Source of the DNA: Liolophura sinensis
Taxonomy: Eukaryota; Mollusca; Polyplacophora; Chitonida; Chitonidae
Assembly: GCF_032854445.1 (NCBI RefSeq)
Contig: NC_088295.1
Coordinates: 65,143,249-65,207,248 of the forward strand
Direction: 5' to 3'
Length of the DNA stretch: 64,000 nucleotides
In this document: positions 6,889 through 61,078 of the stretch, in pieces
How the letters are laid out: each line of letters starts with the position of its first letter
Numbering within the stretch: the stretch's first letter is position 1
Position numbers and translations under genes: made by a program
The notes under the pieces: generated by a model
Databases searched by the model: none
What the model was told of the DNA's origin: nothing
The model's input: the letters and a program-made list of their open reading frames with translations, nothing else

Positions 6889-6960
6889 GGTTCTGGCGAG
6901 GTTCGAACTCGCGACATTCTGCTTGTATATCAGACGTGATAACCACTGCACCACGCAACC
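6889..6960 (-). pseudogene. tRNA-Val(TAC)-like pseudogene at the array edge
   Basis: 72-nt cloverleaf-like sequence with the valine body of the array (D arm GTGGTTATCAC, T arm GCGAG/CTCGC). The anticodon loop reads TATACAA, so position 33 is A instead of the near-universal T, the top anticodon-stem pair is A-G, and acceptor pairs 5 and 6 are mismatched. No T4 run follows closely. Probably an old, inactive member. Confidence 0.7.
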
Positions 6961-7113
6961 AATGATATTTCAGTTGTGTTTATAGCTTACCAGTGTAGAC
7001 GTCTTTGCCATGTCATGAGAAATCATGTGACCCGGGTGGAAAGCACAATCAAAACGTGGCAACAGTTGGTTCCAAATCCATGACTCCAAGGCCGAAGAAG
7101 AAAAACTACGAAG
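6889..7113 (-). repeat. unit 0: diverged, LINE-free edge of the valine-tRNA array
   Basis: Aligns with the TAC-gene-to-CAC-gene part of the later units (shared CCATGTCATGAGAAATCA, AAAACGTGGCAA and AAATCCATGAC blocks) but is clearly diverged. The LINE tail is absent: the single copy of the target sequence lies at 7055-7067. The CAC gene is reduced to a CTACGAAG stub near 7106-7113. Homology to the array begins exactly at the 3' end of the tRNA-like sequence at 6889. Confidence 0.8.
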
Positions 7114-7317
7114 CCCACACTCTTGAAAAGTTATGAGAGGAAGTAATGGAGTGGAAACCAATACTTGTTGTGTACAGTTATAAGCTTAACATGAAGACAA
7201 GACAAGAAACATGATCGGCTCAATCCACACACAACCTGAATGCTCAATACGTGGTGAAGAATCTATTCTCTTGAGCAAAACATGAGAAAAGGCAAAGAAG
7301 AACATTTTTTTTACAGA

Positions 7318-7371
7318 CCTTCGCCACCTTTTGCGTGTTAAGCATACGTGATAACCACTACAATACGGAAC
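7318..7371 (-). pseudogene. tRNA-Val(AAC) fragment, T arm missing (example)
   Basis: Keeps the 5' acceptor half (GTTCCG), D arm (TTGTAGTGGTTATCAC) and an anticodon loop TTAACAC, but the stem is TATGC/GCAAA with a mismatch and the sequence runs out of homology where the T arm should start. Every unit has this fragment; positions are given in the unit entries. Its flanks resemble those of the intact AAC gene (GGCATCTCATGCACGAATGA on one side, GGCAAAGAAGAA on the other), so it is a decayed internal duplicate of that gene. Confidence 0.7.
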
Positions 7372-8452
7372 TATTTCGGTATATGATCTATGTTTTTTGG
7401 CATCTCATGCACGAATGAACTACTGTAAAATACTTATTATTCGCTGCAATTTTACTTTCGCGAATTTTCTACTAAGATTTGTCCGCGGGAATTAATTTTC
7501 GCGTATCTTAGAGAATACTTAAAGAAAAAAAACGGATGCGAAAGTCTTCAAATTTTCCAAGATATAATATGGCCGAAATTATTCAAGCACGTAAAACATG
7601 TATCATCATGGGTGGCTTTTATCCCGCTTTGTTGCCTGCAGTGTTGCTAATTCTCGTGATCTGGATCAAAGATTAAAACAATTGAGGATGGAATGTCACT
7701 TCGTGAAAAGATTACTTGCGCACCCACTTAAATCAATAATGAGCACTTTTAAACACCTGGCAAAGTCACCTTTTCAAGGGTTCAAGGCGAAACATATGAA
7801 TTTACCATTATCGGCGCCACTCACTCATTATTTATCAAGCAACACAGTATGTTGGTTATTGTTTTCCGTTTTTATCGCCCTCTGTAGCAGGTCAGAAACC
7901 GCACACATTGCCGTAGCTGTCAAATGGCCATTGTCTTGTTGTACACACTTCACAGTTTGTTAGAAGCTCACTCATTTGATCACAGGAAACACACAGCCAA
8001 TGGGATAGTGTGTATCAGAGCGACACTCATTAGGAGCCAACAAGCGCTGGTGTCTACTTTTCTTTCACCTGGCATAGCGAAGACTGATCAAACTAAAGAC
8101 GAATAAACTCCCACGTTGTTTTATACCCACCAAGAATTAGCACCAGAGTTTGTATGCATTTAAACCATAATTTCCCTTCAGTGCGGTTCAAAAATGTAAC
8201 TAGCCCGTCGGGCTTTCTTAGCGCGACTGCCGACACCTTGGCAAAGATTTCACTTCATTATTACTACTAACTGTAGTATATGATTCAGTGTTGGACATTT
8301 ATTTGGCTGGAATTATTTTTGGCGCTAAATTATTAGGTACTCCACAGTATAACTTTGGGGGAAAGAAACTCATTTGGTGCAACTGACCGAAAGGAAATCG
8401 CCACTAAGGCCGTTAACACATCTTTGTGATAACTTCGCTTGAGATAAAAAAA

Positions 8453-8524
8453 GGTTGTGGCGAAGTTCGAACTCGCCACCTTCTGCGTGTAAAGCAGAAG
8501 TGATAACCACTAAACTACCAAAAG
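8453..8524 (-). pseudogene. decayed tRNA-Val(TAC), unit 1 (example)
   Basis: D arm, anticodon arm (loop TTTACAC) and T arm (GCGAG TTCGAAC TTCGC) are kept, but the acceptor strands CTTTTGG and CACAACC pair at only three of seven positions. A T-run follows at once, so it might still be transcribed but should not mature to a normal tRNA. Its downstream 100 bp resembles that of the intact TAC gene, so it is a decayed duplicate. Confidence 0.75.
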
Positions 8525-8546
8525 GCAAAGAAGAAAAAATAGAAAA

Positions 8547-8567
8547 GGTTCGGAACACTACGGAACC
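8547..8567 (-). pseudogene. deletion remnant of tRNA-Val(AAC), unit 1
   Basis: Only the two acceptor ends survive (GGTTC then GGAACACTACGGAACC on the plus strand). The position matches the AAC gene of all later units, so this is a loss or an imperfect ancestral state. Confidence 0.65.
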
Positions 8568-8721
8568 ATTTCGACGAAAACTCTATGTTATTGGGCATCT
8601 CATGCACGAATGAAGTGTAACGTTTTGGGGGGGAAAAACTCATTTCGTGGCTTTGACCAAAATGAAATCTCCAATACGACCATTAAGACATCTTTGTGAG
8701 GACTTCAATTGAGATAAAACA

Positions 8722-8793
8722 GGTTCTGGCGAGGTTCGAACTCGCGACCTTCTGCGTGTAAAGCAGACGTGATAACCACTACACCACAGAACC
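8722..8793 (-). tRNA. tRNA-Val(TAC), unit 1
   Basis: 72 nt in gene sense: acceptor GGTTCTG pairs with CAGAACC (7 bp), D arm GTGTAGTGGTTATCAC, anticodon stem TCTGC/GCAGA with loop TTTACAC (anticodon TAC, decoding GUA and probably GUG), variable AGGTC, T stem GCGAG/CTCGC with loop TTCGAAC. The A box (TGGTGTAGTGG) and B box (AGTTCGAACCT) are intact. T at the discriminator position is unusual. A Pol III stop (TTTT) follows two bases later. No intron. Confidence 0.85.
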
Positions 8794-8888
8794 AATAGGT
8801 TTTCGTATGTGTTTATGGCTTACTTGTGTAGAAGTGTTTGCCATGTCATGAGAAATCAATATGTCCCACGTGGAGGCCACAAGCAAAA

Positions 8889-8901
8889 CGTGGCAAGAGT
8901 T
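8889..8901. repeat. target-site duplication, left copy (unit 1)
   Basis: CGTGGCAAGAGTT borders the poly(T) side of the LINE tail; the partner CGTGGCCAGAGTT lies at 9304-9316. The unoccupied counterpart in unit 0 is at 7055-7067. Confidence 0.75.
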
Positions 8902-9303
8902 TTTTTTTGAAAATTGTTGAGTTTATTCCCAATTTGTCATCAAATACACAAGATTTAACCATGACCGGCTTTCACAAACTTTTGAAATCACAAAGCAGTC
9001 TTAATTAAAATAAAATATCACAGAGAAGATGACTGCTTTGTGAATAGAACAATTGCACATTAGCCGCTCATTTCAATAAATACACTAATTTATCATTGCG
9101 TAATGTACAGAAGACTTTTTTTACACAACAGATTTTCTCACAAGATGGCCTATCTAGCCGAAAAAAGTCAACATGAATATGTGTTTTAATAATTCCTTTG
9201 GCAGCCTTAACGATGGCAACAGCATCCCTGTTCCTTTTCTAAAATATTGTGCCGTTGCGTGCACACCAAATACTAAACTGAAGAACACATATGACATACA
9301 CCC
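8902..9303 (-). mobile_element. 5'-truncated LINE tail, unit 1 (example)
   Basis: About 400 bp of a non-LTR retrotransposon in minus sense, ending in poly(A) (T8 at 8901-8908) and preceded by a GGGAATAAA-like 3' end. The decoded C-terminus of ORF2 starts YVICVLQFSIWCARNG and runs to a stop in FFRLDR-type sequence. It matches the C-terminus of the longer LINE at 61311-62348 (YLITVCLFCVWCARNE..., FCRLS). The 13-bp target-site duplications on both sides show a genuine retrotransposition event with strong 5' truncation. Confidence 0.85.
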
Positions 9304-9316
9304 CGTGGCCAGAGTT
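9304..9316. repeat. target-site duplication, right copy (unit 1)
   Basis: CGTGGCCAGAGTT, one mismatch from the left copy at 8889-8901. Marks the 5' truncation point of the LINE tail. Confidence 0.75.
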
Positions 9317-9380
9317 GCTTCTAAATCCATGACCCAAAGGCCCAAGAAGTTTGAAAAGAATTAAAGAAATATACCTTACA

Positions 9381-9452
9381 GGTTTCGGCGAGGTTCGAAC
9401 TCGCGACCTTCTGCGTGTGAAGCAGACGTGATAACCACTACACTACGAAACC
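9381..9452 (-). tRNA. tRNA-Val(CAC), unit 1
   Basis: 72 nt: acceptor GGTTTCG/CGAAACC fully paired, D arm GTGTAGTGGTTATCAC, anticodon stem TCTGC/GCAGA with loop TTCACAC (anticodon CAC, decoding GUG), T arm GCGAG TTCGAAC CTCGC. A and B boxes are intact. The discriminator is T. The first T4 run is 24 nt downstream, next to the truncated end of the LINE tail's target site, so the primary transcript would have a longer trailer than the TAC gene. Confidence 0.85.
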
Positions 9453-9707
9453 CTCTCTCTAGAGAACTTATGAGAGGAAGTAATGGAGTGGAAATCGATA
9501 CTTGTTGTGTACAATTACAAACTTAACATGATGGCAAGACAAGAAACATAATCGGCTAAATCCACACACAGCCTGAATTTCTCAATACGTGATGAAGAAT
9601 CTATTCTCTTGAGCAAAACATGAGAAAAGGCAAAGAAGAACATTTTTTACAGACCTTCGCCACCTTTTGCGTGTTAAGCATACGTGATAACCACTACAAT
9701 ACGGAAC

Positions 9708-10794
9708 TATTGCGGTATATGATCTATGTTTTTTGGCATCTCATGCACGAATGATCTACTGTAAAATACTTATTATTCGCTGCAATTTTACTTTCGCGAA
9801 TTTTCTACTAAGATTTGTCCGCGAGAATTAATTTTCGCGTATGTAAGAGAATACTTAGAAAATAAAAACGGATGTGAAAGTCTTAACATTTTCCAAGATA
9901 TAATATGGCCGAAATGATTCAAGCACGTAAAGCATGTATCATCATGGGTGGCTTTTATCCCGCTTTGTTGCCTGCAGTGTCGCTAATTCTCGTGATCTGG
10001 ATCAAAGATTAAAACAATTGAAAATGGATTATGACTTCGTGAGAAGATTACTTTCGCACCCACTTAAATCAATAATGAGCACTTTTAAACACCTGGCAAA
10101 GGGATCTGTCACCTTTTCAACGGTTCAAGGGAAAACATATGAATTTACCATTATCGGCGCCACTCACTCATTATTTATCAAGCAACACAGAAAGTTGTGT
10201 ATTGTTTTCCGTTTTTATCGCCCTCTGTAGCAGGTCAGAAACCGCACACATTGCCGTAGCTGTCAAATGGCCATTGTCTTGTTGTACACACTTCACAGTT
10301 TGTTAGAAGCTCACCCATTTAATCACAGGAAACACACAGCCAATGGGATAGTGTGTATCAGAGCGACATTCATTAGAAGCCAACAAGTGCTGGTGTCTAC
10401 TTTTCTTTCAACTTGCATAGCGAAGACTGATCAAACCAAAGACAAATAAACTCCCACGTTGTTTTATACCCAGCAAGCAATAGCACCAGAGTGTGTATGC
10501 ATTTAAACCATAATTTCCCTTCAGTGCGGTTCAAAAATGTAACTAGCCCGTCGGGCTTTCTTAGCGCAACTGCCGACACCTTGGCAAAGATTTCACTTCA
10601 TTATTACTACTAACTGTAGTATATGATTCAGTGTTGGACATTTATTCGGCTGGAATTATTTTTGGCGGTATATTATTAGGTACTCCACAGTATAACTTTG
10701 GGGGAAAGAAACTCATTTGGTGCAACTGACCAAAAGGAAATCGCCACTAAGGCCGTTAACACATCTTTGTGATAACTTCGCTTGAGATAAAAAA
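9708..10794. other. unit spacer without recognised gene (example, unit 2)
   Basis: About 1.1 kb present in every unit. Contains TTTCGCGAATTTT and GTCCGCGAGAATTAATTTTCG, which partly fold on each other, and two plus-strand open frames of 98 and 60 codons (9934-10230, 10267-10449). These frames shift in units 1, 8, 10, 11, 12, 17 and 18, and I recognise no family, so I do not call them genes. It may be a remnant of another transposon or merely spacer. Confidence 0.5.
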
Positions 10795-10866
10795 GGTTGT
10801 GGCGAAGTTCGAACTCGCCACCTTCTGCGTGTAAAGCAGAAGTGATAACCACTAAACTACCAAAAG
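10795..10866 (-). pseudogene. decayed tRNA-Val(TAC), unit 2
   Basis: Same unpaired acceptor (CTTTTGG against CACAACC) as in unit 1. Confidence 0.75.
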
Positions 10867-10889
10867 GCAAAGAAGAAAAACATACAATA

Positions 10890-10961
10890 GGTTCCGGCGA
10901 AGCTCGAACTCGCGGCCTTCTGCGTGTTAAGCAGACGTGATAACCACTACACTACGGAACC
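10890..10961 (-). tRNA. tRNA-Val(AAC), unit 2
   Basis: 72 nt: acceptor GGTTCCG/CGGAACC fully paired, D arm GTGTAGTGGTTATCAC, anticodon stem TCTGC/GCAGA with loop TTAACAC (anticodon AAC; A34 is expected to become inosine and read GUU, GUC and GUA), T arm GCGAG TTCGAGC. This copy has a G-T pair at the top of the T stem (CTCGC to TTCGC), shared with units 6 and 7. The discriminator is T; a T5 stop lies nine bases downstream. Confidence 0.85.
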
Positions 10962-11116
10962 ATTTCGAAGAAAACTCTATATTATTGGGCATCTCATGCA
11001 CGAATGAAGTATAACGTTTTGGGGGTGAAAAAACTCATTTCGTGACTCTGACCAAGATAAAATCTCCAGTACGACCATTAACACATCTTCGTGAGGACTT
11101 CAATTGAGATAAAACA

Positions 11117-11188
11117 GGTTCTGGCGAGGTTCGAACTCGCGACCTTCTGCGTGTAAAGCAGACGTGATAACCACTACACCACAGAACC
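11117..11188 (-). tRNA. tRNA-Val(TAC), unit 2
   Basis: Consensus copy with paired arms, T at the discriminator position and an immediate TTTT stop. Confidence 0.85.
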
Positions 11189-11296
11189 AATAGGTTTTCG
11201 TATGTGTTTATGGCTTACTTGTGTAGAAGTGTTTGCCATGTCATGAGAAATCAATATGTCCCACGTGGAGGCCACAAGCAAAACGTGGCAAGAGTT

Positions 11297-11697
11297 TTTT
11301 TTGAAAATTGTTGAGTTTATTCCCAATTTGTCATCAAATACACAAGATTTAACCATGACCGGCTTTCACAAACTTTTGAAATCACAAAGCAGTCTTAATT
11401 AAAATAAAATATCACAGAGAAGATGACTGCTTTGTGAATAGAACAATTGCACATTAGCCGCTCATTTCAATAAATACACTAATTTATCATTGCGTAATGT
11501 ACAGAAGACTTTTTTTACACAACAGATTTTCTCACAAGATGGCCTATCTAGCCGAAAAAAGTCAACATGAATATGTGTTTTAATAATTCCTTTGGCAGCC
11601 TTAACGATGGCAACAGCATCCCTGTTCCTTTTCTAAAATATTATGCCGTTGCGTGCACACCAAATACTAAACTGAAGAACACATATGACATACAACC
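11297..11697 (-). mobile_element. LINE tail, unit 2
   Basis: Same insertion as in unit 1; target duplications at 11284-11296 and 11698-11710. Confidence 0.8.
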
Positions 11698-11774
11698 CGT
11701 GGCCAGAGTTGCTTCTAAATCCATGACCCAAAGGCCCAAGAAGTTTGAAAAGAATTAAAGAAATATACCTTACA

Positions 11775-11846
11775 GGTTTCGGCGAGGTTCGAACTCGCGA
11801 CCTTCTGCGTGTGAAGCAGACGTGATAACCACTACACTACGAAACC
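11775..11846 (-). tRNA. tRNA-Val(CAC), unit 2
   Basis: Consensus copy with fully paired arms. Confidence 0.85.
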
Positions 11847-13188
11847 CTCTCTCTAGAGAACTTATGAGAGGAAGTAATGGAGTGGAAATCGATACTTGTT
11901 GTGTACAATTACAAACTTAACATGAAGACAAGACAAGAAACATGATCGGCTAAATCCACACACAGCCTGAATTTCTCAATACGTGATGAAGAATCTATTC
12001 TCTTGAGCAAAACATGAGAAAAGGCAAAGAAGAACATTTTTTACAGACCTTCGCCACCTTTTGCGTGTTAAGCATACGTGATAACCACTACAATACGGAA
12101 CTATTGCGGTATATGATCTATGTTTTTTGGCATCTCATGCACGAATGATCTACTGTAAAATACTTATTATTCGCTGCAATTTTACTTTCGCGAATTTTCT
12201 ACTAAGATTTGTCCGCGAGAATTAATTTTCGCGTATGTCAGAGAATACTTAGAAAATAAAAACGGATGTGAAAGTCTTAACATTTTCCAAGATATAATAT
12301 GGCCGAAATGATTCAAGCACGTAAAGCATGTATCATCATGGGTGGCTTTTATCCCGCTTTGTTGCCTGCAGTGTCGCTAATTCTCGTGATCTGGATCAAA
12401 GATTAAAACAATTGAAAATGGATTATGACTTCGTGAGAAGATTACTTTCGCACCCACTTAAATCAATAATGAGCACTTTTAAACACCTGGCAAAGGGATC
12501 TGTCACCTTTTCAACGGTTCAAGGGAAAACATATGAATTTACCATTATCGGCGCCACTCACTCATTATTTATCAAGCAACACAGAAAGTTGTGTATTGTT
12601 TTCCGTTTTTATCGCCCTCTGTAGCAGGTCAGAAACCGCACACATTGCCGTAGCTGTCAAATGGCCATTGTCTTGTTGTACACACTTCACAGTTTGTTAG
12701 AAGCTCACCCATTTAATCACAGGAAACACACAGCCAATGGGATAGTGTGTATCAGAGCGACATTCATTAGAAGCCAACAAGTGCTGGTGTCTACTTTTCT
12801 TTCAACTTGCATAGCGAAGACTGATCAAACCAAAGACAAATAAACTCCCACGTTGTTTTATACCCAGCAAGCAATAGCACCAGAGTGTGTATGCATTTAA
12901 ACCATAATTTCCCTTCAGTGCGGTTCAAAAATGTAACTAGCCCGTCGGGCTTTCTTAGCGCAACTGCCGACACCTTGGCAAAGATTTCACTTCATTATTA
13001 CTACTAACTGTAGTATATGATTCAGTGTTGGACATTTATTCGGCTGGAATTATATTTGGCGGTATATTATTAGGTACTCCACAGTATAACTTTGGGGGAA
13101 AGAAACTCATTTGGTGCAACTGACCAAAAGGAAATCGCCACTAAGGCCGTTAACACATCTTTGTGATAACTTCGCTTGAGATAAAAAA

Positions 13189-13260
13189 GGTTGTGGCGAA
13201 GTTCGAACTCGCCACCTTCTGCGTGTAAAGCAGAAGTGATAACCACTAAACTACCAAAAG
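13189..13260 (-). pseudogene. decayed tRNA-Val(TAC), unit 3
   Basis: Acceptor unpaired as in unit 1. Confidence 0.75.
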
Positions 13261-13283
13261 GCAAAGAAGAAAAACATACAATA

Positions 13284-13355
13284 GGTTCCGGCGAGGCTCG
13301 AACTCGCGGCCTTCTGCGTGTTAAGCAGACGTGATAACCACTACACTACGGAACC
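13284..13355 (-). tRNA. tRNA-Val(AAC), unit 3
   Basis: Consensus AAC copy with a standard CTCGC T stem and a T5 stop nine bases downstream. Confidence 0.85.
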
Positions 13356-13510
13356 ATTTTGACGAAAACTCTATATTATTGGGCATCTCATGCACGAATG
13401 AAGTATAACGTTTTGGGGGTGAAAAAACTCATTTCGTGACTCTGACCAAGATAGAATCTCCAGTACGACCATTAACACATCTTCGTGAGGACTTCAATTG
13501 AGATAAAACA

Positions 13511-13535
13511 GGTTCTGGCGAGGTTCGAACTCGCG
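13511..13535 (-). pseudogene. partial duplicate of the TAC gene 3' end, unit 3
   Basis: 25 bp covering the T arm and 3' acceptor strand (including the B box), followed by a repeat of the 87-bp downstream flank. It is the extra piece created by the 112-bp duplication; the same piece occurs in units 8, 10, 13, 14, 18, 19 and 21. Confidence 0.8.
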
Positions 13536-13622
13536 AAAACTCATTTCGTGACTCTGACCAAGATAGAATCTCCAGTACGACCATTAACACATCTTCGTGA
13601 GGACTTCAATTGAGATAAAACA

Positions 13623-13691
13623 GGTTCTGGCGAGGTTCGAACTCGCGACCTTCTGCGTGTAAAGCAGACGTGATAACCACTACACCATACC
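13623..13691 (-). pseudogene. tRNA-Val(TAC) with broken acceptor, unit 3
   Basis: 69 nt: anticodon and T arms are consensus, but the 5' acceptor strand reads GGTA instead of GGTTCTG after loss of 3 nt, so the stem can pair at only a few positions. Promoter boxes remain largely intact. Confidence 0.75.
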
Positions 13692-13799
13692 AATAGGTTT
13701 TCATATGTGTTTATGGCTTACTTGTGTAGAAGTGTTTGCCATGTCATGAGAAATCAATATGTCCCACGTGGAGGCCACAAGCAAAACGTGGAAAGAGTT

Positions 13800-14199
13800 T
13801 TTTTTGAAAATTGTTGAGTTTATTCCCAATTTGTCATCAAATACACAAGATTTAACCATGACCGGCTTTCACAAACTTTTGAAATCACAAAGCAGTCTTC
13901 ATTAAAATAAAATATCACAGAGAAGATGACTGTTTGTGAATAGAACAATTGCACATTAGCCGCTCATTTCAATAAATACACTAATTTATCATTGCGTAAT
14001 GTACAGAAGACTTTGTTTATATAACAGATTTTCTCACAAGATGGCCTATCTAGCCGAAAAAAGTCAACATGAATACGTGTTTTAACATTTCCTTTGGCAG
14101 CCTTAACGATGGCAACAGCATCCCTGTTCCTTTTCTAAAATATTATGCCGTTGCGTGCATACCAAATACTAAACTGAAGAACACATATGACATACAACC
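13800..14199 (-). mobile_element. LINE tail, unit 3
   Basis: Left target duplication CGTGGAAAGAGTT at 13787-13799 carries a C-to-A change; right copy 14200-14212. Confidence 0.8.
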
Positions 14200-14276
14200 C
14201 GTGGCCAGAGTTGCTTCTAAATCCATGACCCAAAGGCCCAAGAAGTTTGAAAAGAATTAAAGAAATATACCTTACA

Positions 14277-14348
14277 GGTTTCGGCGAGGTTCGAACTCGC
14301 GACCTTCTGCGTGTGAAGCAGACGTGATAATCACTACACTACGAAACC
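14277..14348 (-). tRNA. tRNA-Val(CAC), unit 3, D-loop variant
   Basis: Conserved D-loop GG (G18 G19) is reduced to GA, which also changes the last base of the A box. Tertiary D-T loop contact and transcription could both suffer. Confidence 0.7.
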
Positions 14349-15608
14349 CTCTCTCTAGAGAAATTATGAGAGGAAGTAATGGAGTGGAAATCGATACTTG
14401 TTGTGTACAATTACAAACTTAACATGAAGACAAGACAAGAAACATGATCGGCTAAATCCACACACAGCCTGAATTTCTCAATACGTGATGAAGAATCAAT
14501 TCTCTTGAGCAAAACATGAGAAAAGGCAAAGAAGAACATTTTTTACAGACCTTCGCCACCTTTTGCGTGTTAAGCATACGTGATAACCACTACAATACGG
14601 AACTATTGCGGTATATGATCTATGTTTTATGGCATCTCATGCACGAATGATCTACTGTAAAATACTTATTATTCGCTGCAATTTTACTTTCGCGAATTTT
14701 CTACTAAGATTTTACTAATGATTTACTAATGATTCAAGCACGTAAAGCATGTATCATCGTGGGTGGCTTTTATCCCGCTTTGTTGCCTGCAGTGTCGCTA
14801 ATTCTCGTGATCTGGATCAAAGATTAAAACAATTGAAAATGGATTATGACTTCGTGAGAAGATTACTTTCGCACCCACTTAAATCAATAATGAGCACTTT
14901 TAAACACCTGGCAAAGGTATCTGTCACCTTTTCAACGGTTCAAGGGAAAACATATGAATTTACCATTATCGGCGCCACTCACTCATTATTTATCAAGCAA
15001 CACAGAAAGTTGTGTATTGTTTTCCGTTTTTATCGCCCTCTGTAGCAGGTCAGAAACCGCACACATTGCCGTAGCTGTCAAATGGCCATTGTCTTGTTGT
15101 ACACACTTCACAGTTTGTTAGAAGCTCACCCATTTAATCACAGGAAACACACAGCCAATGGGATAGTGTGTATCAGAGCGACATTCATTAGAAGCCAACA
15201 AGTGCTGGTGTCTACTTTTCTTTCAACTTGCATAGCGAAGACTGATCAAACCAAAGACAAATAAACTCCCACGTTGTTTTATACCCAGCAAGCAATAGCA
15301 CCAGAGTGTGTATGCATTTAAACCATAATTTCCCTTCAGTGCGGTTAAAAAATGTAACTACCCCGTCGGGCTTTCTTAGCGCAACTGCCGACACCTTGGC
15401 AAAGATTTCACTTCATTATTACTACTAACTGTAGTATATGATTCAGTGTTGGACATTTATTCGGCTGAATTATTTTTGGCGGTATATTATTAGGTACTCC
15501 ACAGTATAACTTTGGGGGAAAGAAACTCATTTGGTGCAACTGACCAAAAGGAAATCGCCACTAAGGCCGTTAACACATCTTTGTGATAACTTCGCTTGAG
15601 ATAAAAAA

Positions 15609-15680
15609 GGTTGTGGCGAAGTTCGAACTCGCCACCTTCTGCGTGTAAAGCAGAAGTGATAACCACTAAACTACCAAAAG
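15609..15680 (-). pseudogene. decayed tRNA-Val(TAC), unit 4
   Basis: Acceptor unpaired as in unit 1. Confidence 0.75.
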
Positions 15681-15703
15681 GCAAAGAAGAGAAACATACA
15701 ATA

Positions 15704-15775
15704 GGTTCCGGCGAGGCTCGAACTCGCGGCCTTCTGCGTGTTAAGCAGACGTGATAACCACTACACTACGGAACC
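15704..15775 (-). tRNA. tRNA-Val(AAC), unit 4
   Basis: Body is consensus, but the downstream T5 is interrupted (TTTCTC), so the usual Pol III stop is weakened. Unit 12 shares this. Confidence 0.8.
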
Positions 15776-15930
15776 ATTTCGACGAAAACTCTATATTATT
15801 GGGCATCTCATGCACGAATGAAGTATAACGTTTTGGGGGTGAAAAAACTCATTTCGTGACTCTGACCAAAATAAAATCTCCAGTACGACCATTAACACAT
15901 CTTCGTGAGGACTTCAATTGAGATAAAACA

Positions 15931-16002
15931 GGTTCTGGCGAGGTTCGAACTCGCGACCTTCTGCGTGTAAAGCAGACGTGATAACCACTACACCACAGAA
16001 CC
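15931..16002 (-). tRNA. tRNA-Val(TAC), unit 4
   Basis: Consensus copy. Confidence 0.85.
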
Positions 16003-16106
16003 AATAGGTTTTCGTATGTGTTACTTACTTGTGTAGAAGTGTTTGCCATGTCATGAGAAATCAATATGTCCCACGTGGAGGCCACAAGCAAAACGTGGCA
16101 AGAGTT

Positions 16107-16499
16107 TTTTTTTGAAAATTGTTGAGTTTATTCCCAATTTGTCATCAAATACACAAGATTTAACCATGACCGGCTTTCACAAACTTTTGAAATCACAAAG
16201 CAGTCTTAATTAAAATAAAATATCACAGAGAAGATGACTGCTTTGTGAATAGAACAATTGCACATTAGCCGCTCATTTCAATAAATACACTAATTTATCA
16301 TTGCGTAATGTACAGAAGACTTTGTTTACACAACAGATTTTCTCACTATCTAGCCGAAAAAAGTCAACATGAATATGTGTTTTAATAATTCCTTTGGCAG
16401 CCTTAACGATGGCAACAGCATCCCTGTTCCTTTTCTAAAATATTATGCCGTTGCGTGCACACCAAATACTAAACTGAAGAACACATAAGACATACACCC
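16107..16499 (-). mobile_element. LINE tail, unit 4
   Basis: Shorter by a 9-bp loss (AAGATGGCC) that cuts the 3' UTR region; target duplications at 16094-16106 and 16500-16512. Confidence 0.8.
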
Positions 16500-16576
16500 C
16501 GTGGCCAGAGTTGCTTCTAAATCCATGACCCAAAGGCCCAAGAAGTTTAAAAAGAATTAAAGAAATATACCTTACA

Positions 16577-16648
16577 GGTTTCGGCGGGGTTCGAACTCGC
16601 GACCTTCTGCGTGTGAAGCAGACGTGATAACCACTACACTACGAAACC
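16577..16648 (-). tRNA. tRNA-Val(CAC), unit 4, T-stem variant
   Basis: T stem CTCGC changed to CCCGC, giving an A-C mismatch in the middle of the stem; shared only with unit 12. Confidence 0.75.
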
Positions 16649-18062: not shown

Positions 18063-18085
18063 GCAAAGAAGAAAAACATACAATA

Positions 18086-51077: not shown

Positions 51078-51100
51078 GCAAAGAAGAAAAACATACAATA

Positions 51101-51172
51101 GGTTCCGGCGAGGCTCGAACTCGCGGCCTTCTGCGTGTTAAGCAGACGTGATAACCACTACACTACGGAACC
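51101..51172 (-). tRNA. tRNA-Val(AAC), unit 19
   Basis: Consensus copy. Confidence 0.85.
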
Positions 51173-51439
51173 ATTTCGACGAAAACTCTATATTATTGGG
51201 CATCTCATGCACGAATGAAGTATAACGTTTTGGGGGTGAAAAAACTCATTTCGTGACTCTGACCAACATAAAATCTCCAGTACGACCATTAACACATCTT
51301 CGTAAGGACTTCAATTGAGATAAAACAGGTTCTGGCGAGGTTCGAACTCGCGAAAACTCATTTCGTGACTCTGACCAAGATAGAATCTCCAGTACGACCA
51401 TTAACACATCTTCGTGAGGACTTCAATTGAGATAAAACA

Positions 51440-51508
51440 GGTTCTGGCGAGGTTCGAACTCGCGACCTTCTGCGTGTAAAGCAGACGTGATAACCACTAC
51501 ACCATATC
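51440..51508 (-). pseudogene. tRNA-Val(TAC) with broken acceptor, unit 19
   Basis: TGATA form as in unit 8. Confidence 0.75.
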
Positions 51509-51616
51509 AATAGGTTTTCATATGTGTTTATGGCTTACTTGTGTAGAAGTGTTTGTCATGTCATGAGAAATCAATATGTCCCACGTGGAGGCCACAAGCA
51601 AAACGTGGAAAGAGTT

Positions 51617-52016
51617 TTTTTTGAAAATTGTTGAGTTTATTCCCAATTTGTCATCAAATACACAAGATTTAACCATGACCGGCTTTCACAAACTTTTGAA
51701 ATCACAAAGCAGTCTTCATTAAAATAAAATATCACAGAGAAGATGACTGTTTGTGAATAGAACAATTGCACATTAGCCGCTCATTTCAATAAATACACTA
51801 ATTTATCATTGCGTAATGTACAGAAGACTTTGTTTATACAACAGATTTTCTCACAAGATGGCCTATCTAGCCGAAAAAAGTCAACATGAATACGTGTTTT
51901 AACATTTCCTTTGGCAGCCTTAACGATGGCAATAGCATCCCTGTTCCTTTTCTAAAATATTATGCCGTTGCGTGCACACCAAATACTAAACTGAAGAACA
52001 CATATGACATACAACC
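51617..52016 (-). mobile_element. LINE tail, unit 19
   Basis: Target duplications at 51604-51616 and 52017-52029. Confidence 0.8.
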
Positions 52017-52093
52017 CGTGGCCAGAGTTGCTTCTAAATCCATGACCCAAAGGCCCAAGAAGTTTGAAAAGAATAAAAGAAATATACCTTAAA

Positions 52094-52165
52094 GGTTTCG
52101 GCGAGGTTCGAACTCGCGACCTTCTGCGTGTGAAGCAGACGTGATAACCACTACACTACGAAACC
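52094..52165 (-). tRNA. tRNA-Val(CAC), unit 19
   Basis: Consensus body. Confidence 0.85.
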
Positions 52166-53181
52166 CTCTCTCTAGAGAACTTATGAGAGGAAGTAATGGA
52201 GTGGAAATCGATACTTGTTGTGTACAATTACAAACATGAAGACAAGACAAGAAACATGATCGGCTAAATCCACACACAGCCTGAATTTCTCAATACGTGA
52301 TGAAGAATCTTTTCTCTAGAGCAAAACATGAGAAAAGGCAAAGAAGAACATTTTTTACATACCTTCGCCACCTTTTGCGTGTTAAGCATACGTGATAACC
52401 ACTACAATACGGAACTATTGCGGTATATGATCTATGTTTTTTGGCATCTCATGCACGAATGATCTACTGTAAAATACTTATTATTCGCTGCAATTTTACT
52501 TTCGCGAATTTTCTACTAAGATTTGTCCGCGAGAATTAATTTTCGCGTATCTAAGAGAATACTTAGAAAATAAAAACACATGTGAAAGTCTTAACATTTT
52601 CCAAGATATAATATGGCCGAAATGATTCAAGCACGTAAAGCATGTATCATCATGGGTGGCTTTTATCCCGCTTTGTTGCCTGCAGTGTCGCTAATTCTCG
52701 TGATCTGGATCAAAGATTAAAACAATCGAAAATGGATTATGACTTCGTGAGAAGATTACTTTCGCACCCACTGAAATCAATAATGAGCACTTTTAAACAC
52801 CTGGCAAAGGGATCTGTCACCTTTTCAACGGTTCAAGGGAAAACATATGAATTTACCATTATCGGCGCCACTCACTCATTATTTATCAAGCAACACAGAA
52901 AGTTGTGTATTGTTTTCCGTTTTTATCGCCCTCTGTAGCAGGTCAGAAACCGCACACATTGCCGTAGCTGTCAAATGGCCATTGTCTTGTTGTACACACT
53001 TCACAGTTTGTTAGAAGCTCACCCATTTAATCACAGGAAACACACAGCCAATGGGATAGTGTGTATCAGAGCGACATTCATTAGAAGCCAACAAGTGCTG
53101 GCGTCTACTTTTCTTTCAACTTGCATAGCGAAGACTGATCAAACCAAAGACAAATACAAAAAATAAAAAAAACATACAATA

Positions 53182-53253
53182 GGTTCCGGCGAGGCTCGAA
53201 CTCGCGGCCTTCTGCGTGTTAAGCAGACGTGATAACCACTACACTACGGAACC
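53182..53253 (-). tRNA. tRNA-Val(AAC), unit 20
   Basis: Consensus body with the long T-run stop created by the deletion, as in unit 8. Confidence 0.85.
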
Positions 53254-53408
53254 ATTTCGACGAAAACTCTATATTATTGGGCATCTCATGCACGAATGAA
53301 GTATAACGTTTTGGGGGTGAAAAAACTCATTTCGTGACTCTGACCAAGATAAAATCTCCAGTACGACCATTAACACATCTTCGTGAGGACTTCAATTGAG
53401 ATAAAACA

Positions 53409-53480
53409 GGTTCTGGCGAGGTTCGAACTCCCGACCTTCTGCGTGTAAAGCAGACGTGATAACCACTACACCACAGAACC
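53409..53480 (-). tRNA. tRNA-Val(TAC), unit 20, T-stem variant
   Basis: T stem GCGAG changed to GGGAG, a G-G mismatch at pair 2 of the stem. Confidence 0.7.
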
Positions 53481-53588
53481 AATAGGTTTTCATATGTGTT
53501 TATGGCTTACTTGTGTAGAAGTGTTTGCCATGTCATGAGAAATCAATATGTCCCACGTGGAGGCCACAAGCAAAACGTGGCAAGAGTT

Positions 53589-53990
53589 TTTTTTTGAAAA
53601 TTGTTGAGTTTATTCCCAATTTGTCATCAAATACACAAGATTTAACCATGACCGGCTTTCACAAACTTTTGAAATCACAAAGCAGTCTTAATTAAAATAA
53701 AATATCACAGAGAAGATGACTGCTTTGTGAATAGAACAATTGCACATTAGCCGCTCATTTCAATAAATACACTAATTTATCATTGCGTAATGTACAGAAG
53801 ACTTTTTTTACACAACAGATTTTCTCACAAGATGGCCTATCTAGCCGAAAAAAGTCAACATGAATACGTGTTTTAATAATTCCTTTGGCAGCCTTAACGA
53901 TGGCAACAGCATCCCTGTTCCTTTTCTAAAATATTATGCCGTTGCGTGCACACCAAATACTAAACTGAAGAACACATATGACATACAACC
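53589..53990 (-). mobile_element. LINE tail, unit 20
   Basis: Target duplications at 53576-53588 and 53991-54003. Confidence 0.8.
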
Positions 53991-54067
53991 CGTGGCCAGA
54001 GTTGCTTCTAAATCCATGACCCAAAGGCCCAAGAAGTTTGAAAAGAATTAAAGAAATATACCTTACA

Positions 54068-54089
54068 GGTTTCGGCGAGGTTCGAAACC
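54068..54089 (-). pseudogene. tRNA-Val(CAC) internal deletion, unit 20
   Basis: Only 22 of 72 bp remain. The junction lies at a CGAA shared by the T loop and the 5' acceptor end, pointing to a 50-bp deletion through microhomology that removes D and anticodon arms. Confidence 0.85.
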
Positions 54090-55432
54090 CTCTCTCTAGA
54101 GAACTTATGAGAGGAAGTAATGGAGTGGAAATCGATACTTGTTGTGTACAATTACAAACTTAACATGAAGACAAGACAAGAAACATGATCGGCTAAATCC
54201 ACACACAGCCTGAATTTCTCAATACGTGATGAAGAATCTATTCTCTTGAGCAAAACATGAGAAAAGGCAAAGAAGAACATTTTTTACAGACCTTCGCCAC
54301 CTTTTGCGTGTTAAGCATACGTGATAACCACTACAATACGGAACTATTGCGGTATATGATCTATGTTTTTTGGCATCTCATGCACGAATGATCTACTGTA
54401 AAATACTTATTATTCGCTGCAATTTTACTTTCGCGAATTTTCTACTAAGATTTGTCCGCGAGAATTAATTTTCGCGTATGTAAGAGAATACTTAGAAAAT
54501 AAAAACGGATGTGAAAGTCTTAACATTTTCCAAGATATAATATGGCCGAAATGATTCAAGCACGTAAAGCGTGTATCATCATGGGTGGCTTTTATCCCGC
54601 TTTGTTGCCTGCAGTGTCGCTAATTCTCGTGATCTGGATCAAAGATTAAAACAATTGAAAATGGATTATGACTTCGTGAGAAGATTACTTTCGCACCCAC
54701 TTAAATCAATAATGAGCACTTTTAAACACCTGGCAAAGGGATCTGTCACCTTTTCAACGGTTCAAGGGAAAACATATGAATTTACCATTATCGGCGCCAC
54801 TCACTCATTATTTATCAAGCAACACAGAAAGTTGTGTATTGTTTTCCGTTTTTATCGCCCTCTGTAGCAGGTCAGAAACCGCACACATTGCCGTAGCTGT
54901 CAAATGGCCATTGTCTTGTTGTACACACTTCACAGTTTGTTAGAAGCTCACCCATTTAATCACAGGAAACACACAGCCAATGGGATAGTGTGTATCAGAG
55001 CGACATTCATTAGAAGCCAACAAGTGCTGGTGTCTACTTTTCTTTCAACTTGCATAGCGAAGACTGATCAAACCAAAGACAAATAAACTCCCATGTTGTT
55101 TTATACCCAGCAAGCAATAGCACCAGAGTGTGTATGCATTTAAACCATAATTTCCCTTCAGTGCGGTTCAAAAATTTAACTAGCCCATCGGGCTTTCTTA
55201 GCGCAACTGCCGACACCTTGGCAAAGATTTCACTTCATTATTTCACTTCAACTGTAGTATATGATTCAGTGTTGGACATTTATTCGGCTGGAATTATATT
55301 TGGCGGTATATTATTAGGTACTCCACAGTATAACTTTGGGGGAAAGAAACTCATTTGGTGCAACTGACCAAAAGGAAATCGCCACTAAGGCCGTTAACAC
55401 ATCTTTGTGATAACTTCGCTTGAGATAAAAAA

Positions 55433-55504
55433 GGTTGTGGCGAAGTTCGAACTCGCCACCTTCTGCGTGTAAAGCAGAAGTGATAACCACTAAACTACCA
55501 AAAG
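55433..55504 (-). pseudogene. decayed tRNA-Val(TAC), unit 21
   Basis: Acceptor unpaired as in unit 1. Confidence 0.75.
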
Positions 55505-55527
55505 GCAAAGAAGAAAAACATACAATA

Positions 55528-55599
55528 GGTTCCGGCGAGGCTCGAACTCGCGGCCTTCTGCGTGTTAAGCAGACGTGATAACCACTACACTACGGAACC
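55528..55599 (-). tRNA. tRNA-Val(AAC), unit 21
   Basis: Consensus copy. Confidence 0.85.
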
Positions 55600-55866
55600 A
55601 TTTCGACGAAAACTCTATATTATTGGGCATCTCATGCACGAATGAAGTATAACGTTTTGGGGGTGAAAAAACTCATTTCGTGACTCTGACCAAGATAGAA
55701 TCTCCAGTACGACCATTAACACATCTTCGTGAGGACTTCAATTGAGATAAAACAGGTTCTGGCGAGGTTCGAACTCGCGAAAACTCATTTCGTGACTCTG
55801 ACCAAGATAGAATCTCCAGTACGACCATTAACACATCTTCGTGAGGACTTCAATTGAGATAAAACA

Positions 55867-55935
55867 GGTTCTGGCGAGGTTCGAACTCGCGACCTTCTGC
55901 GTGTAAAGCAGACGTGATAACCACTACACCATATC
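55867..55935 (-). pseudogene. tRNA-Val(TAC) with broken acceptor, unit 21
   Basis: TGATA form as in unit 8. Confidence 0.75.
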
Positions 55936-56043
55936 AATAGGTTTTCATATGTGTTTATGGCTTACTTGTGTAGAAGTGTTTGCCATGTCATGAGAAATCA
56001 ATATGTCCCACGTGGAGGCCACAAGCAAAACGTGGAAAGAGTT

Positions 56044-56444
56044 TTTTTTGAAAATTGTTGAGTTTATTCCCAATTTGTCATCAAATACACAAGATTTAAC
56101 CATGACCGGCTTTCACAAACTTTTGAAATCACAAAGCAGTCTTCATTAAAATAAAATATCACAGAGAAGATGACTGCTTTGTGAATAGAACAATTGCACA
56201 TTAGCCGCTCATTTCAATAAATACACTAATTTATCATTGCGTAATGTACAGAAGACTTTGTTTATACAACAGATTTTCTCACAAGATGGCCTATCTAGCC
56301 GAAAAAAGTCAACATGAATACGTGTTTTAACATTTCCTTTGGCAGCCTTAACGATGGCAATAGCATCCCTGTTCCTTTTCTAAAATATTATGCCGTTGCG
56401 TGCACACCAAATACTAAACTGAAGAACACATATGACATACAACC
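56044..56444 (-). mobile_element. LINE tail, unit 21
   Basis: Target duplications at 56031-56043 and 56445-56457. Confidence 0.8.
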
Positions 56445-56521
56445 CGTGGCCAGAGTTGCTTCTAAATCCATGACCCAAAGGCCCAAGAAGTTTGAAAAGA
56501 ATAAAAGAAATATACCTTAAA

Positions 56522-56593
56522 GGTTTCGGCGAGGTTCGAACTCGCGACCTTCTGCGTGTGAAGCAGACGTGATAACCACTACACTACGAAACC
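56522..56593 (-). tRNA. tRNA-Val(CAC), unit 21
   Basis: Consensus body. Confidence 0.85.
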
Positions 56594-57930
56594 CTCTCTC
56601 TAGAGAACTTATGAGAGGAAGTAATGGAGTGGAAATCAATACTTGTTGTGTACAATTACAAACATGAAGACAAGACAAGAAACATGATCGGCTAAATCCA
56701 CACACAGCCTGAATTTCTCAATACGTGATGAAGAATCTATTCTCTAGAGCAAAACATGAGAAAAGGCAAAGAAGAACATTTTTTACATACCTTCGCCACC
56801 TTTTGCGTGTTAAGCATACGTGATAACCACTACAATACGGAACTATTGCGGTATATGATCTATGTTTTTTGGCATCTCATGCACGAATGATCTACTGTAA
56901 AATACTTATTATTCGCTGCAATTTTACTTTCGCGAATTTTCTACTAAGATTTGTCCGCGAGAATTAATTTTCGCGTATCTAAGAGAATACTTAGAAAATA
57001 AAAACGGATGTGAAAGTCTTAACATTTTCCAAGATATAATATGGCCGAAATGATTCAAGCACGTAAAGCATGTATCATCATGGGTGGCTTTTATCCCGCT
57101 TTGTTGCCTGCAGTGTCGCTAATTCTCGTGATCTGGATCAAAAATTAAAACAATTGAAAATGGATTATGACTTCGTGAGAAGATTACTTTCGCACCCACT
57201 GAAATCAATAATGAGCACTTTTAAACACCTGGCAAAGGGATCTGTCACCTTTTCAACGGTTCAAGGGAAAACATATGAATTTACCATTATCGGCGCCACT
57301 CACTCATTATTTATCAAGCAACACAGAAAGTTGTGTATTGTTTTCCGTTTTTATCGCCCTCTGTAGCAGGTCAGAAACCGCACACATTGTCGTAGCTGTC
57401 AAATGGCCATTGTCTTGTTGTACACACTTCACAGTTTGTTAGCAGCCCACCCATTTAATCACAGGAAACACACAGCCAATGGGATAGTGTGTATCAGAGC
57501 GACATTCATTAGAAGCCAACAAGTGCTGGCGTCTACTTTTCTTTCAACTTGCATAGCGAAGACTGATCAAACCAAAGACAAATAAACTCCCACGTTGTTT
57601 TATACCCAGCAAGCAATAGCACCAGAATTTGTATGCATTTAAACCATAATTTCCCTTCAGTGCGGTACAAAAATTTAACTAGCCCATCGGGCTTTCCTAG
57701 CGCAACTGCCGACACCTTGGCAAAGATTTCACTTCATTATTACTACTAACTGTAGTATATGATTCAGTGTTGGACATTTATTCGGCTGGAATTATTTTTG
57801 GCGGTATATTATTAGGTACTCCACAGTATAACTTTGGGGGAAAGAAACTCATTTGGTGCAACTGACCAAAAGGAAATCGCCACTAAGGCCGTTAACACAT
57901 CTTTGTGATAACTTCGCTTGAGATAAAAAA

Positions 57931-58002
57931 GGTTGTTGCGAAGTTCGAACTCGCCACCTTCTGCGTGTAAAGCAGAAGTGATAACCACTAAACTACCAAA
58001 AG
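57931..58002 (-). pseudogene. decayed tRNA-Val(TAC), unit 22
   Basis: GTTGTTGCG variant as in unit 9. Confidence 0.75.
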
Positions 58003-58025
58003 GCAAAGAAGAAAAACATACAATA

Positions 58026-58097
58026 GGTTCCGGCGAGGCTCGAACTCGCGGCCTTCTGCGTGTTAAGCAGACGTGATAACCACTACACTACGGAACC
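58026..58097 (-). tRNA. tRNA-Val(AAC), unit 22
   Basis: Consensus copy. Confidence 0.85.
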
Positions 58098-58252
58098 ATT
58101 TCGACGAAAATTCTATATTATTGGGCATCTCATGCACGAATGAAGTATAACGTTTTGGGGGTGAAAAAACTCATTTCGTGACTCTGACCAAGATAAAATC
58201 TCCAGTACGACCATTAACACATCTTCGTGAGGACTTCAATTGAGATAAAACA

Positions 58253-58324
58253 GGTTCTGGAGAGGTTCGAACTCGCGACCTTCTGCGTGTAAAGCAGACG
58301 TGATAACCACTACACCACAGAACC
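58253..58324 (-). tRNA. tRNA-Val(TAC), unit 22, T-stem variant
   Basis: T stem CTCGC changed to CTCTC, a C-T mismatch. Confidence 0.7.
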
Positions 58325-58432
58325 AATAGGTTTTCATATGTGTTTATGGCTTACTTGTGTAGAAGTGTTTGCCATGTCATGAGAAATCAATATATCCCAC
58401 GTGGAGGCCACAAGCAAAACGTGGCAAGAGTT

Positions 58433-58832
58433 TTTTTGAAAATTGTTGAGTTTATTCCCAATTTGTCATCAAATACACAAGATTTAACCTTGACCGGCTT
58501 TCACAAACTTTTGAAATCACAAAGCAGTCTTAATTAAAATAAAATATCACAGAGAAGATGACTGCTTTGTGAATAGAACAATTGCACATTAGCCGCTCAT
58601 TTCAATAAATACACTAATTTATCATTGCGTAATGTACAGAAGACTTTGTTTATACAGCAGATTTTCTCACAAGATGGCCTATCTAGCCGAAAAAAGTCAA
58701 CATGAATACGTGTTTTAATAATTCCTTTGGCAGCCTTAACGATGGCAACAGCATCCCTGTTCCTTTTCTGAAATATTATGCCGTTGCGTGCACACCAAAT
58801 ACTAAACTGAAGAACACATATGACATACAACC
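58433..58832 (-). mobile_element. LINE tail, unit 22
   Basis: Keeps an open residual ORF2 frame (58597-58832) ending in the YVICVLQF...FFRLDRPSC segment. Confidence 0.8.
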
Positions 58833-58909
58833 CGTGGCCAGAGTTGCTTCTAAATCCATGACCCAAAGGACCAAGAAGTTTGAAAAGAATTAAAGAAATA
58901 TAAATTACA

Positions 58910-58981
58910 GGTTTCGGCGAGGTTCGAACTCGCGACCTTCTGCGTGTGAAGCAGACGTGATAACCACTACACTACGAAACC
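58910..58981 (-). tRNA. tRNA-Val(CAC), unit 22
   Basis: Consensus body; last CAC gene of the array. Confidence 0.85.
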
Positions 58982-60323
58982 CTCTCTCTAGAGAACTTAT
59001 GAGAGGAAGTAATGGAGTGGAAATCGATACTTGTTGTGTACAATTACAAACTTAACATGAAGACAAGACAAGAAACATGATCGGCTAAATCCACACACAG
59101 CCTGAATTTCTCAATACGTGATGAAGAATCTATTCTCTTGAGCAAAACATGAGAAAAGGCAAAGAAGAACATTTTTTACAGACCTTCGCCACCTTTTGCG
59201 CGTTAAGCATACGTGATAACCACTACAATACGGAACTATTGCGGTATATGATCTATGTTTTTTGGCATCTCATGCACGAATGATCTACTGTAAAATACTT
59301 ATTATTCGCTGCAATTTTACTTTCGCGAATTTTCTACTAAGATTTGTCCGCGAGAATTAATTTTCGCGTATCTAAGAGAATACTTAGAAAATAAAAACGG
59401 ATGTGAAAGTCTTAACATTTTCCAAGATATAATATGGCCGAAATGATTCAAGCACGTAAAGCATGTATCATCATGGGTGGCTTTTATCCCACTTTGTTGC
59501 CTGTAGTGTCGCTAATTCTCGTGATCTGGATCAAAGATTAAAACAATTGAAAATGGATTATGACTTCGTGAGAAGATTACTTTCGCACCCACTGAAATCA
59601 ATAATGAGCACTTTTAAACACCTGGCAAAGGGATCTGTCACCTTTTCAACGGTTCAAGGGAAAACATATGAATTTACCATTATCGGCGCCACTCACTCAT
59701 TATTTATCAAGCAACACAGAAAGTTGTGTATTGTTTTCCGTTTTGATCGCCCTCTGTAGCAGGTCAGAAACCGCACACATTGCCGTAGCTGTCAAATGGC
59801 CATTGTCTTGTTGTACACACTTCACAGTTTGTTAGAAGCTCACCCATTTAATCACAGGAAACACACAGCCAATGGGATAGTGTGTATCAGAGCGACATTC
59901 ATTAGAAGCCAACAAGTGCTGGTGTCTACTTTTCTTTCAACTTGCATAGCGAAGACTGATCAAACCAAAGACAAATAAACTCCCACGTTGTTTTATACCC
60001 AGCAAGCAATAGCACCAGAGTTTGTATGCATTTAAACCATAATTTCCCTTCAGTGCGGTTCAAAAATTTAACTAGCCCGTCGGGCTTTCTTAGCGCAACT
60101 GCCGACACCTTGGCAAAGATTTCACTTCATTATTACTACTAACTGTAGTATATGATTCAGTGTTGGACATTTATTCGGCTGGAATTATTTTTGGCGGTAT
60201 ATTATTAGGTACTCCACAGTATAACTTTGGGGGAAAGAAACTCATTTGGTGCAACTGACCAAAAGGAAATCGCCACTAAGGCCGTTAACACATCTTTGTG
60301 ATAACTTCGTTTGAGATAAAAAA

Positions 60324-60395
60324 GGTTGTGGCGAAGTTCGAACTCGCCACCTTCTGCGTGTAAAGCAGAAGTGATAACCACTAAACTACCAAAAG
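60324..60395 (-). pseudogene. decayed tRNA-Val(TAC), unit 23
   Basis: Acceptor unpaired as in unit 1. Confidence 0.75.
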
Positions 60396-60417
60396 GCAAA
60401 GAAGTAAACATACAATA

Positions 60418-60489
60418 GGTTCCGGCGAGGCTCGAACTCGCGGCCTTCTGCGTGTTAAGCAGACGTGATAACCACTACACTACGGAACC
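60418..60489 (-). tRNA. tRNA-Val(AAC), unit 23
   Basis: Consensus body, but the downstream T5 is reduced to TTT (GTAAAC on the plus strand), so the stop is weak. Confidence 0.8.
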
Positions 60490-60746
60490 ATTTCGACGAA
60501 AACTCTATGTTATTGGGCATCTCATGCACGAATGAAGTATAACGTTTTGGGGGTGAAAAAACTCATTTCGTGACTCTGACCAAGATAAAATCTCCAGTAC
60601 GACCATTAACACATCTTCGTGAGGACTTCCACAGAACCAATAGGTTTTCATATGTGTTTATGGCTTACTTGTGTAGAAGTGTTTGCCATGTCATGAGAAA
60701 TCAATATGTCCCACGTGGAGGCCACAAGCAAAACGTGGCAAGAGTT

Positions 60747-61078
60747 TTTTTTTGAAAATTGTTGAGTTTATTCCCAATTTGTCATCCAATACACAAGATT
60801 TAACCATGACCGGCTTTCACAAACTTTTGAAATCACAAAGCAGTCTTAATTAAAATAAAATATCACAGAGAAGATGACTTCTTTGTGAATAGAACAATTG
60901 CACATTAGCCGCTCATTTCAATAAATACACTAATTTATCATTGCGTAATGTACAGAAGACTTTGTTTATACAACAGATTTTCTCACAAGATGGCCTATCT
61001 AGCCGAAAAAAGTGAACATGAATACGTGTTTTAATAATTCCTTTGGCAGCCTTAACGATGGCGACAGCATCTTTGTTC
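60747..61078 (-). mobile_element. LINE tail, unit 23, interrupted
   Basis: 3' part of the usual LINE tail; the 5' part is replaced by the poly(A) end of the longer LINE. Left target copy at 60734-60746. Confidence 0.8.

Follow-up and report, generated by a model that had tools for sequence, protein, structure and literature searches.

The DNA analysed here, referred to as the window, is a stretch of 64,000 nucleotides from the chiton Liolophura sinensis (NCBI RefSeq assembly GCF_032854445.1, contig NC_088295.1, positions 65,143,249 to 65,207,248 of the forward strand), in which nuclear tRNA-Val genes form a tandem array. Although genuine and of large size, this array belongs to a known kind of tRNA cluster, and all 57 of its full-length genes in the window carry T at position 73, the place at which A is listed as the eukaryotic determinant for valine. 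The explanation that we favour, and regard as quite probable, is that this array has been multiplied and homogenised in place, that its full-length copies are transcribed by RNA polymerase III (Pol III) and that the chiton's valyl-tRNA synthetase accepts U73. An initial annotation, made from the letters of the sequence, had reported a valine-only array with a composite unit; its observation was confirmed, and its interpretation was supported in part. T73, the stretch of array past the LINE (long interspersed nuclear element) and the proportion of all Val copies that lies in the array had escaped it.

Structure of the array and of its repeat unit

Within the window the array spans 6888..61078 on the minus strand and consists of a degenerate Val copy at the left edge, outside the regular units (6888..6960, minus strand; 41.5 bits with Rfam), followed by 22 whole units and the start of a 23rd. 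These ends coincide with those originally proposed (6889..61078), the right one being the junction at 61078 with a long interspersed nuclear element (LINE), which interrupts unit 23 at 61079. The whole units are arranged head-to-tail in a single orientation, are 1924-2506 bp long (mostly about 2.4 kb) and have a GC content of about 39-40%; the description of about 23 tandem 2.4-kb units with several genes each thus holds, with 22 of them whole and the 23rd split by the LINE. When the numbering of the window is extended into the neighbouring DNA (window-equivalent positions), unit 23 picks up after the LINE at 66279 and the array stops near 68270.

All 79 tRNA genes called by ARAGORN in the window (8452-60489) are tRNA-Val genes on the minus strand, and all 86 matches to Rfam RF00005 at or above the gathering score (6888-60489) also lie on that strand, as expected from the claim of a valine-only, one-strand array. 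Tallied by hand, these matches comprise 57 full-length copies (56.6-69.4 bits), 20 degenerate copies of class A (29.6-42 bits) and nine other partial or altered copies. A separate script, in which at least six of the seven acceptor pairs were required and G-T was accepted as a pair, also returned 57 full-length copies (22 with anticodon AAC, 21 with CAC, 14 with TAC and none with any other), which is exactly the number that had been put forward as a minimum. All seven acceptor pairs are intact in 54 of the 57 (G-T counted), and a TTTT run begins no more than 23 nt downstream in every one of them. The commonest form of a conserved region that we take to be the A box, on an assumed Pol III box consensus, is retained in 54 copies. 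The covariance scores of the 57 full-length tRNAs rule out chance or a simple repeat as the source of the signal.

The arrangement of the genes is given here for unit 2 (9454..11847, minus strand; 2,394 bp), which serves as the reference and in which all features lie on the minus strand. Class D, tRNA-Val(CAC), is at 11774..11846 (T73, 68.3 bits), and the TTTT run of this class starts 14 or 22 nt downstream; class C, tRNA-Val(TAC), is at 11116..11188 (T73, 69.4 bits), with its TTTT run 1 nt downstream; and class B, tRNA-Val(AAC), is at 10889..10961 (T73), where it scores 60.1 bits in this unit and 65.9 bits in 16 of the 22 copies, the TTTT run lying 8 nt downstream in 19 of the 22. The three anticodons of a regular unit (AAC, TAC and CAC) are sufficient for all four valine codons. 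Class A (10794..10861) is a degenerate 68-nt Val(TAC) copy of 32.3 bits with a broken acceptor stem, and is probably a pseudogene, whereas relic E (9650..9712) is a fragment derived from Val(AAC) that lacks the T arm. Between classes C and D lies a relic of a LINE 3′ end, with approximate bounds set by hand (11290..11740); the corresponding relic in unit 22 encodes 49 amino acids (aa) with 39% identity to the C-terminus of the inserted LINE.

Not all units are complete. Class A is absent from three of them (U08, U10 and U20), and in eight units a 112-bp tandem duplication (for example 13424..13648, minus strand) truncates or alters class C, its two copies being 100% identical in seven cases and 97% identical in one. 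The edge unit 1 (7120..9453, minus strand) has diverged, with 94.1% identity to unit 2. The only assembly gap, of exactly 200 N (32679..32878), starts after a class D gene and ends inside the next class D copy. The inference that this gap makes the true copy number higher fails, as the gap does not prove extra copies; the true number may differ in either direction.

Position 73 and the Val genes outside the array

Allowing two mismatches at most, a Val core pattern of 32 places matched the 609-Mb genome 128 times (15 forward and 113 reverse; none for a backward-pattern control), counts that take in degenerate copies. A count of Val genes elsewhere had been proposed as a check on the array: 113 of the 128 matches fall at the array locus (106 in the window, five in the remaining array and two in single genes about 12 and 14 kb past its right end) and 15 fall off it. 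Fourteen of these 15 were read, 12 on chromosome C10 (24.657-24.679 Mb), one on C12 and one on C13; all but one, a truncated copy, are full length (13), and all three anticodons are present among them. The commonest scores of array and dispersed genes are 69.4 and 69.4 bits for TAC, 68.3 and 66.2 for CAC, and 65.9 and 65.1 for AAC. Five dispersed TAC genes, located on C10 and C12, have exactly the 72-nt body of class C, and this body is present in nine of the 14 array TAC copies. The flanks, compared over 45 nt on each side, gave no match between the array TAC gene and the C10 and C12 genes at E values up to 1.

Position 73 is T in all 57 full-length array copies and in all 17 Val genes counted outside the window (two at the right end of the array, two single genes on C1, and 13 on C10, C12 and C13), two additional copies with fewer than six acceptor pairs having been omitted. 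Outside the window the base was read by a script anchored on the T-loop GTTC, which covered 94 of 103 ARAGORN calls in 46 stretches, nine being dropped for a missing anchor or a poor stem. In the other tRNAs read in this way base 73 is T in 39 of 41 Thr genes, G in 28 of 30 Arg genes, A in two of two Ala genes, T in two of two Cys genes, A in the single Phe gene and C in the single Pro gene. The accessible part of a review (PMC9976931) gives as eukaryotic determinants A73 and A35 for Val, U73 for Thr, U73 for Cys, A73 for Phe and C73 for Pro, with no required base 73 for Ala or Arg in its table, and terms A73 of tRNA-Val conserved and universal. The full-length Val copies all have A35 (AAC, TAC and CAC anticodons only), but A73 is carried neither by the array nor by the Val genes outside it. 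Among the seven amino acids seen, only Val departs from the listed or usual base 73, Ala, Cys, Phe and Pro being represented by few genes.

A separate family of Val genes with A73 was not found with a relaxed 31-place pattern and at most one mismatch, which a divergent gene could escape; this pattern would also match human and fly Val genes. It gave 14 forward matches, which are the dispersed genes already read, and 112 reverse matches, a number equal to the local count at the array locus. Since exact patterns aimed at Val genes in other organisms had no matches in either the viral contig or the genome contig collection, the state of A73 elsewhere is taken from the review (PMC9976931). None of the titles and abstract openings consulted dealt with arrays of nuclear tRNA genes in chitons or with tRNA-Val that has U73. 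Exons matching valyl-tRNA synthetase were found at two places on C13 and have no bearing on base 73. T73 is a firm fact of the sequence.

Origin and homogenisation of the units

Within a single unit the segments carrying classes A and C, together with their flanks, are paralogous over 175 bp at 83% identity, and those carrying class B and relic E over 98 bp, also at 83%, with about 105 bp (A/C) and about 46 bp (B/E) of common flank. This supports the view that the Val copies of one unit arose by local duplication of DNA carrying its flanks. A SINE (short interspersed nuclear element) family was ruled out as their source, the copies being in tandem on one strand and the paralogues within a unit having matching flanks, as in DNA duplication.

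Units 2-23 are 97.2-99.9% identical (mean 98.5%; ungapped columns only), and their divergence does not increase steadily with distance along the array. All four combinations were found at 957 of 3,321 informative site pairs, with a Hudson-Kaplan Rm of 16, and all four are likewise present among the units for two length variants, the 112-bp duplication and a deletion of about 96 bp with about 15 bp in its place. A two-unit block comprising units 8-9 is repeated as units 10-11 at 99.9% identity (23839..32637, minus strand), the product of a recent duplication. At the edges, differences from the core consensus in the spacer amount to 70 of 1,581 sites in unit 1 and 69 of 1,418 sites in the partial unit 24. 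These patterns support a model in which unequal exchange and gene conversion would have multiplied the units and would keep them similar, while the edges drift.

Function of the array and alternative explanations

Since the window contains 57 full-length genes, whereas 13 were read on other chromosomes and two stand singly nearby, the array would be a main source of cytosolic tRNA-Val if, as we suppose, its full-length copies are transcribed by Pol III. That a Val gene with A73 was not found suggests that the chiton's valyl-tRNA synthetase accepts U73. Expression of the array is inferred from its sequence.

Several results weigh against this explanation. The majority AAC and CAC sequences of the array differ from those of the dispersed genes at three and two sites, respectively, and no array copy of either class matches a dispersed sequence; the array-specific bases, numbered from the first base, are A9, C47 and G59 in AAC and A9 and A59 in CAC. 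Selection on individual copies was not detected: diversity in the gene classes (B 0.0071, C 0.0196, D 0.0114) is not clearly below that of the spacer (0.0153), which class C exceeds, and the degenerate A and E have values of 0.0083 and 0.0104. Recurrent mutation may inflate the signal from the four combinations, and T73, as a departure from the determinant A73, could impair charging.

Distinctly less probable is a reading of the array as satellite-like DNA that spread by recombination and is for the most part silent, in which case the C10 cluster and the dispersed Val genes would supply translation. The array copies show constraint no stronger than that on the spacer or the degenerate copies, the Val genes read elsewhere supply all three anticodons, and a precedent exists in the Ser/Tyr cluster of Arabidopsis, which is silenced in most tissues according to the accessible part of PMC12308677. 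Recent homogenisation, however, can by itself mask constraint, and a silent array is hard to reconcile with the intact acceptor pairs of 54 full-length copies, the TTTT runs downstream of all 57 and a TAC body unchanged relative to the dispersed genes. An improbable alternative is that the array's main role is to mark a boundary in chromatin or to block replication forks, and that supplying tRNA comes second; CTCF binding is described for a human tRNA tandem repeat, for which a boundary function has been proposed (PMC4041453, accessible part).

The least credible alternative is an artefact of assembly, such as the joining of haplotype contigs at the gap. In its favour are the single 200-N gap inside the array, the coverage of 14x and heterozygosity of 1.22-1.26% given for the assembly in the accessible part of PMC11068029, and the similarity of several unit pairs across the gap (U03/U13 99.6%, U02/U16 99.7%). 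Against it stand a longest exact repeat within the array of 1,787 bp, far under the published mean HiFi read length of 8,347 bp (PMC11068029), the absence of any long match to the reference unit in the fetched left flank, and the presence of only two single tRNA genes beyond 68,270 on the right. Given the lengths of that repeat and of the mean read, the units should be resolvable outside the gap, where an artefact is unlikely. With a threshold of 99.5% identity, matching units in succession nowhere extend across the gap; the sole run of this kind (U08-U09/U10-U11) lies to the left of it, and a mere duplication of the array across the gap was rejected on this ground.

Relation to other tRNA clusters

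Clusters of tRNA genes for a single amino acid have been described in eukaryotes as a class of their own, termed homogeneous (Bermudez-Santana et al. 2010, PMC2888827, accessible part). Like the chiton array, they consist of neighbouring genes for one amino acid that are mostly parallel, and certain animals have large clusters where their relatives have few. The definition used there calls for gaps below 1 kb, whereas in the chiton several genes share a unit of about 2.4 kb, one of whose spacers exceeds 1 kb; the string 'mollus-' is absent from the main text of that paper.

Other clusters are present in the same genome. Thr genes are clustered at 35.308-35.331 Mb on C10 and at 39.937-39.951 Mb on C1, Arg-TCG genes on C9, and a mixed array with many repeats at C12:24440001-24490000 has Arg-TCT genes on one strand and Thr-CGT genes on the other. 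By pattern matching only, a Lys core pattern gave 41 genome matches, 37 of them at C1:70388244-70430346 and mostly about 900 bp apart, and a Glu core pattern gave 39, with 35 at C6:11245914-11277054 and often about 566 bp apart (none for either control). An approximate Ile pattern had no genome matches and was uninformative. The Val array is one large member among several tRNA tandem clusters in this genome. The composite multi-gene unit had been described correctly, but the suggestion that a single-amino-acid array of this sort is unusual goes too far, given these Thr, Arg, Lys and Glu clusters and the eukaryotic class described above.

The unit of the human tRNA tandem repeat at 1q23.3 mixes several amino acids. 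Like that of the chiton it bears tRNA genes and is several kb long, with 9-43 units per human allele, but at 7.3 kb and GC-rich it differs from the valine-only chiton unit of about 2.4 kb and 39-40% GC (PMC4041453). Nearly all tRNA genes of Entamoeba histolytica are in tandem arrays with up to five tRNA genes per unit (PMC2652664, accessible part); its units have short tandem repeats between the genes and some contain 5S RNA, whereas the chiton arrays examined are mostly of one amino acid each. Arabidopsis clusters also consist of tandem units for one or two amino acids (Ser/Tyr, PMC12308677; Cys, PMC10701932; accessible parts), the Cys cluster having four genes in 0.4-kb units, unlike the chiton. 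A single-amino-acid unit with three anticodons is not described in the summary information on the Arabidopsis clusters.

Other features of the window

The LINE inserted in unit 23 (61079..64000 and beyond, minus strand, to about window-equivalent 66279) has RVT_1 and zf-RVT domains, is accompanied by a short target duplication, and has its reading frame divided over several open reading frames in the window. Targeting of tRNA genes by this LINE was considered on account of the LINE 3′ sequence within each unit and of the insertion that breaks up the final unit; it was not supported, as the two insertion points, read by eye, differ and neither is within a tRNA gene.

No intervening protein gene was seen in the array, in keeping with what had been reported, although the 99-aa open frame at 9931-10230 (plus strand) was the only one scanned against Pfam. 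This frame recurs at the same place in many units; the one copy scanned had no Pfam match at E 0.01, and the frame may be kept open by homogenisation alone. To the left of the array, a 236-aa open frame at 3661-4371 (minus strand) with two SH3 domain matches is likely to be an exon of a protein gene. The segments 3500-3660, 4737-4910 and 6690-6800 resemble what we take to be dispersed mollusc SINE copies, and a 42-bp unit is repeated in tandem 4.3 times at 652-831, within a minus-strand open frame of 128 aa.

Implications

L. sinensis offers an animal genome in which the genes for several amino acids are in tandem tRNA arrays, mostly with one amino acid each, and as such is well suited to studies of concerted evolution and of the dosage of tRNAs. 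Should the T73 genes prove to be its working valine tRNAs, the chiton would violate a rule that has been termed universal. Whether the valine identity rule has shifted in the chiton lineage, with U73 replacing A73 in cytosolic tRNA-Val across three anticodons and six genome places, we judge to be evenly balanced; in another system, the charging of a viral Val tRNA-like structure by wheat valyl-tRNA synthetase, A73 is without effect (PMC9976931). A reading in which chiton tRNA-Val has three of the four listed Thr acceptor determinants was reduced, as the chiton Thr genes, read by eye, have C3-G70 and not U3-A70. If the rule has shifted, the valyl-tRNA synthetase must ignore or prefer U73, the Val acceptor end would resemble that of the chiton's own Thr tRNAs in two features (G1-C72 and U73), and discrimination between Val and Thr would rely on the anticodon and on other stem pairs.

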